From positions 1 to 30,028 of the IMG/VR virus record IMGVR_UViG_3300027733_000154: a stretch of 30,028 nt of DNA; one strand, given 5' to 3'. Position 1 is the first letter of the stretch; each line of letters begins with the position of its first letter. Below the pieces are notes generated by a model. The model was not told where the DNA came from and made no database searches. It worked only from the letters and a program-made list of their open reading frames with translations. The position numbers and the translations under genes are program-made. This document shows, piece by piece, positions 4,575 through 13,983 of this stretch. Origin of the DNA: a virus.

Positions 4575-4606
4575 TAAATGTATGCTAAATTATTTTACCC
4601 GACAAC
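4575..4606 (-). promoter_or_regulatory. Candidate promoter for the three genes 4570-3963
   Basis: On the minus strand TTG (4604-4606) is followed after 21 bases by TACATTTA (4575-4582), one base off the Bacteroidota -7 consensus TAnnTTTG. The 15 bases at 4575-4589 match the stronger promoter at 11052-11066 in 13 positions (TTTAGCATAyATTTr). The start codon is only four bases downstream of the -7 element, so the transcript would be almost leaderless. Confidence 0.35.
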
Positions 4607-5905
4607 GTATTGTCCATAACTTGGATTAAGTTCGAAGTACATTCTCATCATTATCGCGTCGGCAACGTCAGGTGAAATACCTTCGCGGTTCTTGATAACG
4701 TCCTTCGGTGTGACCATAAGTTTACCGTCAACGTCTGCGCGGTGTCGTTTAATCATTTCTAACTCACGAACGATTTGTTCTTTGCGCGTGCTGGATAGAA
4801 TCGTTACCTTGTTTTCTTCGACGTATTGAGCAAGTTTATAATAACATTCGCTCTTTAAGTTTTGGTATTGCGGGTGCTTTGGTTTAGATCCGTTGACAAA
4901 CCCGCGACATTTCAAGAAGTCAACCACACCACCACCTACTCCGTCCTCGTCGCACACTACGTCTTGCAATAAAATTGAGTGTTGTTGACAGGTTAAACGA
5001 ACTTTGTTCACGACTTCGTCTAACGCTGCACGATTGAGTTCAATTATATCTATAATCGTAAGACCTTCCCAAACGCAGATAATGGTTCTATCCTTACCAA
5101 AACGCGCTATGTCGGCTGTGATATATTTCTTTCCTTCGTTTATTACTTCGTTCCTAAACATTCGAAGTAAGTTCTCCGTTTGGAATAGTTTGTCGCTGTC
5201 GTCGTCGAACTCCCAATTACCTTCTAAAAGTCTTTTGCGGTCGTATTCAGGAAGGCGACGCAACGATTCAATGTAAGCAACAGGAAGAAACGGGTTGTCC
5301 TGTGGTAACGCTTGCACAAAGGCGCGGTGTGAAGGCAATTCGTTGCGGTTGTTCTTCATGTAGAACTCGTTGTAAAGCCACCCCTTCGCAGGATTGCAGG
5401 ACAAGAAACCTTTGGGAATTAAACCGAACTCGTTTAGTTTATAACGACATCGCGAATGAACAATGCTGACCGCCTTTGCGGTTACTTCGGAACATTCATC
5501 GACGAAATAGTCTGTAATTTCAAGCGACCCTAATGAATTATAGTTCACATCTGAGGGGTAGGCCTGCAAGTCTTTTAGAACAATTTCGCTTCCGTTGAAG
5601 AATTTAATTATGTTTGATTGCCCGTTGAAAGTGTAGTGTTTATTTGCTATCAATCCGAATTCTTCAGCCGTTTCAAAGAACGTGTTTAAGGTCGTCTTTT
5701 TTAAGTTGTCTAACTTTGCACGTCCAATAAGAGAACGCGTCCCTGCGTACTTCAAACGTCGTTGTATCTGCCACATACAACCGAACTTCGTCTTTCCACC
5801 CCCTGCCGCGCCACCGTATAACAATTGTTCAACGATACTATCTGTGTTCAGATAGTTCAACGCTTCAATCTGACGCGGCAGGTATTCGGGTTTGTAAGGT
5901 GTCAT
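4595..5905 (-). CDS. terL: Terminase large subunit (packaging ATPase/nuclease)
   Basis: This 436-residue motor protein pumps DNA into the prohead and cuts it. The N-terminal ATPase shows a Walker A-like GGAAGGGKT (31-39), a Walker B with the catalytic acid YFVDECSE (D136, E137) and a coupling motif LSCNPA (169-173). The C-terminal RNase H-like nuclease shows ITADIARFGKD (D265), VVCDEDGVGGG (D319-D321) and SPDVADAIMM (D413, D416). Both domains look intact and the length is normal. Unusually, it lies on the strand opposite to all other virion genes and is about 7.7 kb from the small subunit, at the end of the replication block. It is preceded by a 51-residue gene overlapping by ATGA. Confidence 0.93.
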   Translation of the reverse strand: MTPYKPEYLPRQIEALNYLNTDSIVEQLLYGGAAGGGKTKFGCMWQIQRRLKYAGTRSLIGRAKLDNLKKTTLNTFFETAEEFGLIANKHYTFNGQSNIIKFFNGSEIVLKDLQAYPSDVNYNSLGSLEITDYFVDECSEVTAKAVSIVHSRCRYKLNEFGLIPKGFLSCNPAKGWLYNEFYMKNNRNELPSHRAFVQALPQDNPFLPVAYIESLRRLPEYDRKRLLEGNWEFDDDSDKLFQTENLLRMFRNEVINEGKKYITADIARFGKDRTIICVWEGLTIIDIIELNRAALDEVVNKVRLTCQQHSILLQDVVCDEDGVGGGVVDFLKCRGFVNGSKPKHPQYQNLKSECYYKLAQYVEENKVTILSSTRKEQIVRELEMIKRHRADVDGKLMVTPKDVIKNREGISPDVADAIMMRMYFELNPSYGQYVVG

Positions 5906-11126: not shown

Positions 11127-11531
11127 ATGAACGTAAAAACTTTTAAGAAAACATATAAAAAAAGTGTTGTGAAGCGTAAAGCAACACCCGAATCTGAATC
11201 GAACCAACAAGAAATTGTAATAAAGTACCTACGTTTAGCATATCCCGACGCGCTTTATTGTGCTTCTGCAGGTGGAATGAGAACAAGTTACTTGCAAGCG
11301 GTTAAAATGAAGCGTACTGGATATGTCAAAGGGTTTCCCGACCTCTTTATTTACGAACCACGCGGATCGTTCTTCGGTCTTGCTATTGAAATGAAGAAAG
11401 AAAAAGGTGGTGTCGCTTCACCAGAACAAAAGCGTTGGCAGGAACAATTAAGAAACAGAGGGTATTGTTCTTATATTTGTAAAGGTAGCGAGGAAGCAAT
11501 CAAAGTAATAGATGAATACTTCAACAGTTGA
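11127..11531 (+). CDS. VRR-NUC domain nuclease (Holliday-junction-resolvase type fold)
   Basis: This 134-residue protein starts at ATG 11127. After a basic N terminus, the core reads ESNQQEIVIKYLRLAYPDAL (E29), then GYVKGFPDLFIYEP with the catalytic Asp of GxPD (D72), then LAIEMKKEKG (E88, K90), SPEQKRWQEQL and GYCSYICKGSEEA. This order (E, PD, ExK, Q) is the restriction-endonuclease-like fold of VRR-NUC nucleases. Such phage enzymes act on branched or recombining DNA. It is first in the short rightward block, and its stop overlaps the next start (TTGA). Confidence 0.85.
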   Translation: MNVKTFKKTYKKSVVKRKATPESESNQQEIVIKYLRLAYPDALYCASAGGMRTSYLQAVKMKRTGYVKGFPDLFIYEPRGSFFGLAIEMKKEKGGVASPEQKRWQEQLRNRGYCSYICKGSEEAIKVIDEYFNS

Positions 11532-12031
11532 CACTTGACAAATACATAGAAGGTAACTATAAAAAGTTCAAAGAACTTGCGAAGAACATTTCGCGAGGTG
11601 AAGATTACTACGAAGATTTGCTTCACGATTCTTTGCTTTCTATGTTTGGGTCAAAGCACATCGAGAATCTAATCGATACAGGTGACTTTGAGTTCTATCT
11701 TATTCGTGTTATGTATCTTGCCGTCAACAGTCCAACGTCGCCTTTCTATCGTCAAACGATTGCATGGAACAGAAACAGACGCGACTTCAAAGAATACGCG
11801 CACGAAGTTGACAAGACGTGGTTGGGCGCACGAATGACCAACGAACAACTGGACATTCTCATCAGTCGACTAACCGAGTTTGAACGTCTGATTTTCCAAG
11901 AATATATCTTCGAAGGTTTTACCTACCGAGAATTTTCTAAACAGACAGGAATACCAACGGTATTTTTATACCGAACTATCGATTCAATTAAAACTAAAAT
12001 AAGAGCAAATGTTATTCGCAAAATCAAATGA
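11528..12031 (+). CDS. Sigma-70-like factor (region 2 and region 4 patterns)
   Basis: This 167-residue protein uses a TTG start at 11528 that overlaps the nuclease stop (TTGA); no ATG is available before the conserved part. Residues about 20-60 resemble sigma region 2 (GEDYYEDLLHDSLLSMF). Residues about 108-160 resemble region 4, with a clear helix-turn-helix (RLTEFERLIFQEYIFEGFTY, REFSKQTGIPTVFLYRTI). It probably binds host RNA polymerase or DNA and could direct late transcription. Region 2 is weak, so a region-4-only transcription factor is the alternative. Confidence 0.65.
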   Translation: MTLDKYIEGNYKKFKELAKNISRGEDYYEDLLHDSLLSMFGSKHIENLIDTGDFEFYLIRVMYLAVNSPTSPFYRQTIAWNRNRRDFKEYAHEVDKTWLGARMTNEQLDILISRLTEFERLIFQEYIFEGFTYREFSKQTGIPTVFLYRTIDSIKTKIRANVIRKIK

Positions 12032-12440
12032 GTACAAAAGACGACTTGAGATATGTCGCACCTGTAAATTCTTTCAACCTTCAACGCAAAGCTGCGGACC
12101 ATTGATCGTGGGTGACGAAGTAGAAACCGAAGTCCTATTCCGAAAGAAGTCAATCAAACTTTGTGGCTGCGTTATGCCTATCAAAGCAAAGTTAGCCTTC
12201 GCATCTTGCCCAGCGTCAAAATGGAACGGTGTCTTGTCGTTGGAAGAACAAATAGAGTTCAAGCGTTTCCTTCTCGATATGAAAGCGCAAGGAAGACTTG
12301 AACAGAAAGATATGTTAAAGTTTTATTCGTTCAAGGACAAAGCCACAGGAGCGTTTAATGAGCGTTCAACGTGTCCGCCCTGCGTGAAGAAAGACATCAA
12401 TACGTTTCTTGATTCAATGAAGGACGTTAACGTTGACTAA
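12009..12440 (+). CDS. Cysteine-rich, probably zinc-binding protein
   Basis: This 143-residue protein starts at ATG 12009, overlapping the sigma-like gene by 23 bases. The N-terminal half contains ICRTC, SCGPL, KLCGCVMPIKAKL and SCPASKW, a Cys spacing that fits two zinc sites. A second pair is CPPC near the C terminus. The ERLEIC...CGC..K..L..CP.SKW pattern is familiar from Bacteroidetes phage proteins of unknown role. Its last four bases overlap the convergent gene. Confidence 0.6.
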   Translation: MLFAKSNEYKRRLEICRTCKFFQPSTQSCGPLIVGDEVETEVLFRKKSIKLCGCVMPIKAKLAFASCPASKWNGVLSLEEQIEFKRFLLDMKAQGRLEQKDMLKFYSFKDKATGAFNERSTCPPCVKKDINTFLDSMKDVNVD

Positions 12441-12664
12441 ATAAACAAGTGAAAGTCTTCTAAACTCGACACGTCCCCTCTGGTGTTGTCTTTAATGTTG
12501 TGCCAACGCATACCACTCAAAAAGAAATCTATTGTCTTATTGGGCGTATAAACGCGAAAGTGACCATGTTGGAAGTGATGCCATGTAATAACATTGTTTG
12601 TCTTGTAGTTAGTCAGTAATTGAATGAACAATTCTTGCTTTGCTTTCTTGTTTATCTTACTCAT
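12437..12664 (-). CDS. Hypothetical protein, 75 residues
   Basis: This is a lone leftward gene between two rightward blocks. The product, SKINKKAKQELFIQLLTNYK followed by a His/aromatic-rich part (TWHHFQHGHFRVYTPNK), ends in LEDFHLFI. No family is recognised. It overlaps the convergent gene by four bases. If a leftward transcript starts at 13113-13146, the structured region would be its long 5' leader. Confidence 0.5.
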   Translation of the reverse strand: MSKINKKAKQELFIQLLTNYKTNNVITWHHFQHGHFRVYTPNKTIDFFLSGMRWHNIKDNTRGDVSSLEDFHLFI

Positions 12665-12671
12665 AATTTTA
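12639..12671 (+). promoter_or_regulatory. Weak candidate promoter for the structured region
   Basis: TTTG (12639-12642) is followed after 21 bases by TAATTTTA (12664-12671), one base off TAnnTTTG. A transcript from here would begin about 15-20 bases before the first paired arm at 12696. It lies at the start of the leftward gene 12437-12664. AT-rich sequence makes chance matches likely. Confidence 0.25.
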
Positions 12672-12695
12672 ATTATTGGACATAGAAAGGTTTAT

Positions 12696-12836
12696 GGGTG
12701 AAAAGACATTAAACTCGCATTTATGCCTTATCAGTATTCCTATTAACTACTACTTGTTAGTGTTTAGTAGTTACTCATAATTCAGAAGATCCTGCATGGG
12801 TTACAGGCAATCAGTTAACTATGTCTAGTTTCACCC
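12696..12836. ncRNA. Structured non-coding element 1: closed multi-branch fold
   Basis: A 14-bp helix closes this element: GGGTGAAA AGACAT (12696-12709) pairs with ATGTCT and TTTCACCC (12821-12826, 12829-12836), leaving a two-base AG bulge. Inside are a perfect nine-bp hairpin (TAACTACTA 12744-12752 / TAGTAGTTA 12765-12773) and a seven-bp hairpin with bulge (GATCCTG 12788-12794 / CAGG 12804-12807 and ATC 12810-12812). No open frame fits. Together this looks like a three-way-junction RNA. Pairing is read directly from sequence; transcription is not shown. Confidence 0.45.
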
Positions 12837-12858
12837 CCAAGTTCCACCTCTGGATTGC

Positions 12859-13004
12859 TTGGATTATTATAACTGTTGTTACTGGTTAATTGTATAATCT
12901 CCAAAATGAAACTCAATGTCATTTCTTACCACTACAAATAACCTTCCTTCTAATTATCACGTTCATTCACCAACTTCACACATCGTTGGTATGGGTTGAA
13001 TGTG
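12859..13004. ncRNA. Structured non-coding element 2: two consecutive hairpins
   Basis: The first hairpin pairs TTGG ATTAT (12859-12867) with ATAAT, a CT bulge and CCAA (12894-12904). The second pairs CACGTTCA (12958-12965) with TGAATGTG (12997-13004), including one G-U pair on the plus strand, and inside it ACCAAC (12969-12974) with GTTGGT (12985-12990). The G-U pair would be A-C on the minus strand, which weakly favours a plus-strand RNA. Nothing else is evident at 12905-12957. Confidence 0.35.
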
Positions 13005-13037
13005 GACAAGACCATTCCTCACTTATCTAAAAAGAAG

Positions 13038-13110
13038 TTGCCCCGCACACCGTACTCGTTAACTTAATAACAGCACAATGCTTGGGGCAATGCTTTGAGA
13101 TTAACGAGTA
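13038..13110. ncRNA. Structured non-coding element 3: H-type pseudoknot
   Basis: Two perfect inverted repeats interlock: TTGCCCC (13038-13044) pairs with GGGGCAA (13084-13090), and TACTCGTTAA (13053-13062) pairs with TTAACGAGTA (13101-13110), in the order a-b-a'-b'. A small AGCA/TGCT hairpin lies between b and a'. Flanking G-U extensions of both helices (37/91 and 52/111) exist only on the plus strand. On the minus strand, however, the GGGGCAA arm is followed by CTTCTTTTT, and a promoter lies just upstream, so a short leftward RNA with a terminator is the rival reading. Confidence 0.45.
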
Positions 13111-13112
13111 TT

Positions 13113-13146
13113 CAAATATAGATATAAATAAACGCGATTTTACAAA
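13113..13146 (-). promoter_or_regulatory. Leftward promoter, Bacteroidota type
   Basis: On the minus strand TATATTTG (13113-13120) matches TAnnTTTG exactly, with TTTG (13143-13146) 22 bases upstream. The element sequence and spacing equal those of the promoter at 11052-11085. It would start a transcript at about 13106, reading into the pseudoknot element and towards the gene 12664-12437. Confidence 0.5.
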
Positions 13147-13162
13147 TAGATTTCAACAACTA

Positions 13163-13193
13163 TTGATTGTTAATAATACATTTAGTATCTTTA
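13163..13193 (+). promoter_or_regulatory. Candidate rightward promoter of the late block
   Basis: TTG (13163-13165) is followed after 20 bases by TATCTTTA (13186-13193), one base off TAnnTTTG. It ends only four bases before ATG 13198, so the message would be leaderless or nearly so. It shares the TTTAG core with the leftward promoters. Confidence 0.4.
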
Positions 13194-13197
13194 GCAT

Positions 13198-13551
13198 ATG
13201 ATTATTATTCCCGCTCAACTTGAATCAGTAGGTACGCGAAAGGACAAGACGCTCAAACTAACGTTTGGAACGAATGAACTTTCACCTTCGCAAGCGTCAG
13301 AACTATTTACAATAGCTAATCAGTTTGGTTATCTCGCCTTCAAAGACGAAGACTTCAAACGCGAAGAATTAGACGCAGTAGAAAGTCTTAAGTCAGAGTT
13401 AGAAGATACCTTAAAGAAGCCTTCACAACGTTTACGCAATGTTCTATTTAGAATGTACGAACAGGACAACGACGGGTTCAAGACCTTCTCAAAATACTAC
13501 GACTCACGAATGGAACAACTTATTAACCATTACAAGAGTAAATTGGGGTGA
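13198..13551 (+). CDS. Conserved hypothetical protein upstream of the small terminase
   Basis: This 117-residue protein has an N-terminal beta part (IIIPAQLESVGTRKDKTLKL, FGTNELSPSQASELF) and a helical C-terminal part (SQRLRNVLFRMYEQDNDGF, then FSKYYDSRMEQLINHYKSK). I have seen this kind of protein directly before terminase small subunits in Bacteroidetes phages, but its function is unknown to me. It is the first gene after the structured non-coding region. ATG 13198 follows a promoter-like sequence very closely. Confidence 0.6.
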   Translation: MIIIPAQLESVGTRKDKTLKLTFGTNELSPSQASELFTIANQFGYLAFKDEDFKREELDAVESLKSELEDTLKKPSQRLRNVLFRMYEQDNDGFKTFSKYYDSRMEQLINHYKSKLG

Positions 13552-13569
13552 TTCTTATATTTATAAATT

Positions 13570-13983
13570 ATGAGCAAGGAAGAAAGCAAACAACAAAACT
13601 CTACACTAAAAAAGAACGCTATGCTAAAAGCATTGGAAAGCACTTTGGGTGTAGTGACTTCAGCGTGTCAGATTGTGGGCATAGATAGAACGACACACTA
13701 CTTGTGGTTAAGTAACGATGAAGACTACAAAGCAAAGGTTGAATCGTTGACCGACCTTGCTGTTGACTTCGCAGAAAGTCAGTTATTCGAATTGATTAAG
13801 GGAGCGCACCGCGAGGTGTCAACACCAGACGGTGAAGTAATCCGTATTCAAGATGCACCCAACACAAGTGCAACAATTTTCTATTTGAAGACGCGAGGAA
13901 AGAAACGAGGGTATGTTGAGCGAACTGAATTAGCAGGTGTGAACGACGCTCCGATTCAGATAATCATCAACGACAAATTATAA
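13570..13983 (+). CDS. terS: Terminase small subunit (DNA recognition)
   Basis: This 137-residue protein has an N-terminal helix-turn-helix (MLKALESTLGVVTSACQIVG, then IDRTTHYLWLSNDEDY) that resembles the DNA-binding domain of phage small terminases. A central helical oligomerisation part follows (VDFAESQLFELIKGAHREV), then TSATIFYLKTRGKKRGYVER, a block typical of this family, and a C-terminal IIINDKL. It would recognise the packaging site and hand DNA to the large subunit, which here is encoded about 7.7 kb away on the other strand. Confidence 0.8.
   Translation: MSKEESKQQNSTLKKNAMLKALESTLGVVTSACQIVGIDRTTHYLWLSNDEDYKAKVESLTDLAVDFAESQLFELIKGAHREVSTPDGEVIRIQDAPNTSATIFYLKTRGKKRGYVERTELAGVNDAPIQIIINDKL

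Follow-up and report, generated by a model that had tools for sequence, protein, structure and literature searches.

A conserved structured RNA of about 430 nt, probably transcribed leftward, in a three-type RNA slot of an aquatic phage group

Relation to described RNA families

The put RNAs of phage HK022 consist of two short hairpins, without a 300-nt body, and with a leader of this kind RNA polymerase passes terminators and needs no protein factor to do so. GOLLD and ROOL RNAs form homo-oligomeric RNA cages. They are long, ornate and pseudoknotted noncoding RNAs of phages, their function is not known, and they are often located near tRNA islands (PMC12286853). The RNA described here lies at positions 12677–13112 of a stretch of viral DNA of 30,028 nucleotides that was analysed as a whole (the window), and it is one of three types, A, B and C, of which the window carries type A. 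Like GOLLD and ROOL, type A is a large phage RNA with a pseudoknot, but it differs from them in being fixed beside the sigma factor and terS genes and in having a pseudoknot module at its 5' end. A preliminary description of the window had considered an RNA of the GOLLD/ROOL kind; this was not supported, as neither the window nor the A, B and C loci scanned gave a match to an Rfam covariance model of that kind, and there is no tRNA in the 30-kb record. With the HK022 put RNAs type A has in common that a phage transcript is predicted to open with a structured RNA, but here a pseudoknot is followed by a body of 300 nt and the whole is oriented away from the genes that would need service. For the prohead RNA of phi29, the window had no Rfam match at the gathering threshold and none that was credible at E-values up to 5, and at gathering and lax thresholds Rfam gave nothing credible for type A or type C.

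Type B resembles the family RF02932 (Betaproteobacteria-1). The match extends over all 120 positions at 26–38 bits in 5 of 5 type B records tested, always at the same place, although every type B score (the best being 37.9 bits) lies below the family's gathering cut-off of 49.4 bits, and the two have the blocks ACGGCAG, CUGyGGGA and a GGCGAAG-like block in common. This similarity suggests that RF02932 extends to phages of the Bacteroidota type. The sub-threshold type B matches include L008:4436–4755, L073:3862–4190 and L077:1711–2040. No RF02932 match was found for types A and C (four A and C records and the window), and the RNA of the window is thus not a member of RF02932. Acidovorax phage AP1 (OM049504.1; L335:4942–5234) also has a sequence that shares 80% identity with a portion of the RF02932 consensus, in an unannotated gap that reaches from the primase to a lysozyme-like gene.

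When A, B and C were used as BLAST queries, none of 50,697 phage records matched, and the literature searched contained no description of the A, B or C RNAs, nor of the function of RF02932. The type C motif was also searched for in genome contigs; the 10 pattern matches came from unrelated phyla and were rejected, since a pattern with 18 fixed bases would give about this number by chance. Judged from their sequences, types A and C are two RNA families absent from Rfam, and these two families together with a strongly supported 5' pseudoknot module are what the locus adds to the described phage RNAs.

The structured element and its conservation

The element fills most of the noncoding gap between an open reading frame that ends at 12664 and a gene that starts at 13198. 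The gap and its surroundings contain the following features:

11528–12031, plus strand: phage sigma factor, a conserved neighbour of the slot (phrog_1740, E 6.9e-10; weak match to sigma-70 region 4)
12009–12440, plus strand: gene for 143 aa, left border of the slot (phrog_13558, no assigned function)
12437–12664, minus strand: m75, an open reading frame of 75 codons that immediately follows the RNA and is conserved at every type A locus
12677–13112, minus strand: type A structured RNA of about 430 nt (consensus of 16 sequences with a folding energy of -109 kcal/mol and 11 doubly compensated pairs)
13198–13551, plus strand: gene for 117 aa, right border of the slot, 43% identical to a protein of Cellulophaga phage phi19:1

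The m75 frame begins at 12664, and at its other end the stop codon overlaps the last bases of the 12009–12440 gene, which is convergent with it; m75 has no confident PHROG or Pfam match. The 13198–13551 gene is the first of the presumed late block. As its relative in phi19:1 is encoded between ERF and NinG, however, it may belong to recombination and not to the late functions.

The preliminary description had reported a region that is rich in inverted repeats and devoid of a credible gene, and both statements are borne out by the sequence. The repeats occur at the positions claimed, i.e., 12696–12703/12829–12836 (arms GGGTGAAA and TTTCACCC), a hairpin at about 12957–13003 and the interlocked pair, in which 13101–13110/13053–13062 is combined with 13084–13090/13038–13044. 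The longest stop-free stretch in the six frames of 12677–13112 is 46 codons, and homologues differ by indels of 1–3 nt. The comparison with shuffled controls that had been proposed for both strands revealed an energy excess that is real, yet nearly strand-neutral. For the gap (12660–13197) z was -2.87 (plus strand) and -4.18 (minus strand), for the element itself (12677–13112) -3.36 and -3.39, respectively, and in neither case did any shuffle fold as well. A single sequence does not tell the strand of the RNA.

Homologues were collected by searching IMG/VR with the proteins encoded by 13198–13551 and 13570–13983 (terS), which gave more than 100 loci. Among these loci, found by protein similarity, 15 distinct intervals share the type A noncoding element with the window, and when the entire collection was scanned for the pattern, the element was present in 17 contigs, all from the same phage group. 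On the minus strand of the alignment (16 homologues, mean column identity 92%) RNAalifold predicted 145 pairs. The promoter is followed by 118 of these, in which 99.4% of the cells are paired. The covariation check likewise turned out positive, with 11 doubly compensated pairs among the 16 homologues and a covariation score reached by 0 of 500 shuffles; when the pairing partners were slid along the alignment at most one double change was kept. The RNA is on average 94.9% identical to that of the window, and the sigma, 12009 and 13198 genes are 84–86% identical. Many helices never vary, because type A sequences are about 88–100% identical and their diversity is low. By comparison of the homologues, region 12677–13112 is confirmed as a conserved structured RNA of about 430 nt. 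What had been described as a new structured phage RNA with an interlocked (here pseudoknotted) element at 13038–13110 is retained, the RNA having no Rfam match; the direction assigned to it is not.

Strand, promoter and anatomy of type A

A rightward RNA had been proposed, partly on the grounds that G-U pairs favour the plus strand. Instead the minus strand is favoured, with a start near 13108 and an RNA that runs left, away from the late block, and it is the minus-strand consensus that is richer in variable pairs with G-U. Here a minus-strand G-U occurs in 11 variable pairs and an A-C in one, compared to seven with a plus-strand G-U and three with an A-C in the plus-strand consensus, where the split is weaker; the comparison is biased towards whichever strand supplies the structure. 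The minus-strand consensus is also the more stable (-109.1 vs. -87.0 kcal/mol) and has the larger covariation term. Column-shuffle z-scores did not separate the two strands. The strand call is based on the position of the promoter, the comparison with types B and C, the consensus energy and the G-U changes, single-sequence z-scores being equal. The putative promoter elements are:

13113–13120, minus strand: -7 promoter element TATATTTG, invariant in 16 of 16 homologues and adjoining a highly variable spacer
13143–13146, minus strand: possible -33 element TTTG, separated from the -7 element by a 22-nt spacer, in a conserved block upstream of the variable spacer
13186–13193, plus strand: -7-like element TATCTTTA, shared by the type A homologues, a possible separate rightward promoter a few bases ahead of the 13198 start codon

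Past the highly variable spacer, conservation begins abruptly at TATATTTG (13120–13113 on the minus strand), which by the rule scanned is the sole TAnnTTTG of the window with a pseudoknot and a U-run behind it, and the pseudoknot begins right at this element, as it does in types B and C. The -7 consensus of Bacteroidota is TAnnTTTG with its last G at -5 (PMC6847099), which places the predicted 5' end near 13108, and we infer that transcription proceeds from a minus-strand promoter at this position. Simple scans for sigma-70 promoters and terminators found nothing above chance in a model that does not cover Bacteroidota promoters. The Bacteroidota-type promoter, along with a terL 49% similar to that of Flavobacterium phage 11b, may be taken as clues to the host. 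In the window terL (4595–5905, minus strand) and terS (13570–13983, plus strand) are on opposite strands and far apart, and in phage 11b they are adjacent. A divergent pair of TAnnTTTG elements, TATCTTTG (11023, plus strand) and TATATTTG (11059, minus strand), is located between the leftward block and the rightward nuclease and sigma genes, and looks like the main early divergent promoter region.

The leftward direction bears on two of the roles that had been suggested. An HK022 put-like leader, which would modify RNA polymerase for antitermination in the late genes, fits with a transcript whose 5' end is structured from the outset and with types B and C, which lie in cis on the same strand and upstream of the 13198 gene and terS. 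For this window it is hard to sustain with a leftward RNA, as all 16 distinct intervals with type A have it diverging from the 13198/terS operon; the 13198 gene in type A has a promoter-like element of its own and the size of the body differs from that of put as noted above, all of which makes such a leader very unlikely. A hairpin-rich DNA element, i.e., an origin or recombination site that acts without being transcribed, would agree with the single-sequence energy excess being the same on both strands, but we consider it extremely improbable given a conserved block that is bounded by a promoter element, pairing that is kept through G-U changes and a pseudoknot with which the transcripts of unrelated types alike begin. 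No direct evidence for the replication origin that had been suggested was found, and the pairing-preserving G-U changes point to an RNA.

In the order in which they would be transcribed, the parts of type A are:

13053–13110, minus strand: pseudoknot stem S1, TACTCGTTAA (13110–13101) with TTAACGAGTA (13062–13053), exact 10-bp arms
13038–13090, minus strand: pseudoknot stem S2, TTGCCCC (13090–13084) with GGGGCAA (13044–13038), interlocked with S1
13047–13081, minus strand: inner hairpin inside S2, 13081–13068 with 13061–13047, a candidate switch that shares the 3' strand of S1
13029–13037, minus strand: U-rich run CTTCTTTTT behind S2, resembling a terminator or pause site; in types B and C, too, S2 is immediately followed by a U-run
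12957–13003, minus strand: stem-loop domain 2, columns 197–243, with one C-G/U-A double change
12683–12952, minus strand: 3' multibranch domain closed by TAGAAGG/CCTTTCTA (12952–12946/12689–12683), helices 4–15 of the consensus

The architecture of S2 matches that of stem 2 in types B and C. As read off the alignment, S1 is changed to TACTCGATT/AATCGAGTA in 5 of the 16 homologues, and columns 130/141 and 132/139 of the inner hairpin are double-changed in the same five sequences, so that changes across all three strands keep both S1 and the inner hairpin. This suggests that S1 and the inner hairpin are two alternative states. A simple terminator scan reported nothing at the U-run at 13029–13037. 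The multibranch domain, with an inner closing helix formed by 12831–12836/12696–12701, holds eight of the doubly compensated pairs.

The slot, its three RNA types and their possible role

In every complete interval examined, the slot that is flanked by the sigma/12009 genes on one side and by the 13198 gene on the other contains one of the three RNA types. Of 69 distinct complete intervals, gathered by protein similarity alone, 15 have type A, 26 type B and 28 type C, and none is empty or doubly occupied. Nucleotide profiles gave no cross-matches among A, B and C loci. Type A is opposite to the 13198 gene in all of its distinct intervals, and B and C are always on the same strand as this gene. 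No contig with type A together with B or C was found in pattern scans of the whole collection. The only contig with both B and C, 3300034168_000141 (L219, L283), has 61,462 bases, about two genome lengths, and may be two genomes joined. On a tree of the sigma gene, 27 type changes are needed compared to a mean of 29.4 for shuffled labels, in a tree that is made from a short gene and that recombination may itself have scrambled. The distribution of the types on the sigma-gene tree is thus nearly random, with very frequent switches between close relatives.

Each of the three types opens with a pseudoknot and a U-run right behind a TAnnTTTG-like box. In B and C this 5' module has 18 pairs, of which 99.8% are formed and seven are doubly compensated, and its covariation score is reached by 0 of 500 shuffles. 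Identical 5' modules precede both B and C bodies, which indicates that the module recombines separately. Both bodies are on the plus strand: after its 5' module type B continues for about 300 nt (20 of 63 pairs doubly compensated), and type C, which has a long tail rich in pyrimidines, is about 200 nt in size (7 of 23). The distance from the RNA to the 13198 gene ranges from less than 100 to more than 1,000 bases, with varied small open reading frames between, and the gene directly behind B and C can be m75 (homologues with 57–62% identity are found behind many type B RNAs), another small open reading frame or the 13198 gene itself.

A slot that is never empty and that holds one of three unrelated RNAs points to an important job borne by the RNA, and from their mutual exclusion we infer that the three types are equivalent in role. 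There may be several explanations for what this role is. First, the RNA may be a packaging RNA of the prohead type that is made beside terS. One RNA per phage throughout the lineage and the proximity of terS are in accordance with this, but for a part that has to fit one motor it would be odd to be exchanged for either of two unrelated RNAs in phages whose terS is similar, and the phage, which is not phi29-like, has an ordinary terL (see above); this explanation is highly improbable. Second, the RNA may be a cis-acting leader (an attenuator or translational control) of the next gene, m75 here and other small genes in B and C, in which a switch between S1 and the inner hairpin would set the read-through beyond the U-run. 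A same-strand open reading frame does lie directly behind the RNA, which in type A could be the 5' UTR of m75, two competing helices covary with one common strand in type A, and the U-run follows S2 in all types. On the other hand the gene behind B and C varies, a body of 430 nt goes far beyond the needs of an attenuator, and there is no evident gene product to be sensed, and we regard a cis leader as possible but rather doubtful.

Third, and in our opinion probable, the slot is always filled and allele-like, and its leftward RNA of about 430 nt has a body that is functional as RNA, presumably in trans. A trans role is preferred over that of a late-operon leader for two reasons: type A is directed away from the operon, and types B and C are followed by varying genes. 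A late-operon role in cis would thus leave some types unexplained, and A, B and C would jointly be accounted for if the RNA itself is functional, probably in trans. The TAnnTTTG -7 element would serve as the promoter, from which the transcript would present, from 5' to 3', the pseudoknot with its competing inner hairpin, the U-run, the stem-loop domain, the closed multibranch domain and a small same-strand open reading frame. It is conceivable that the 5' pseudoknot folds first as the transcript emerges and that, with the U-run, it acts as a pause or attenuator and/or as a 5' stabiliser, while the body would act as RNA, most likely in trans and with the same role in A, B and C. It is tempting to speculate, although we think it unlikely, that A, B and C are alternative specificity alleles that are swapped as whole cassettes among close relatives under diversifying selection. 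Examples could be superinfection exclusion or immunity groups based on RNA, or RNAs by which host defences are escaped or blocked, with a common kind of 5' pseudoknot as a cap. In this abundant aquatic phage group, the natural swaps of RNAs between close relatives offer a ready-made genetic comparison for the function of large phage RNAs.

In type C (L011:4677–4976, L076:1178–1522, L106:3652–3981) a possible second pseudoknot was observed, in which AGTCA would pair with TGACT, and the tail at the 3' end of this type is a long, nearly pure U/C tract that is conserved in distant relatives.
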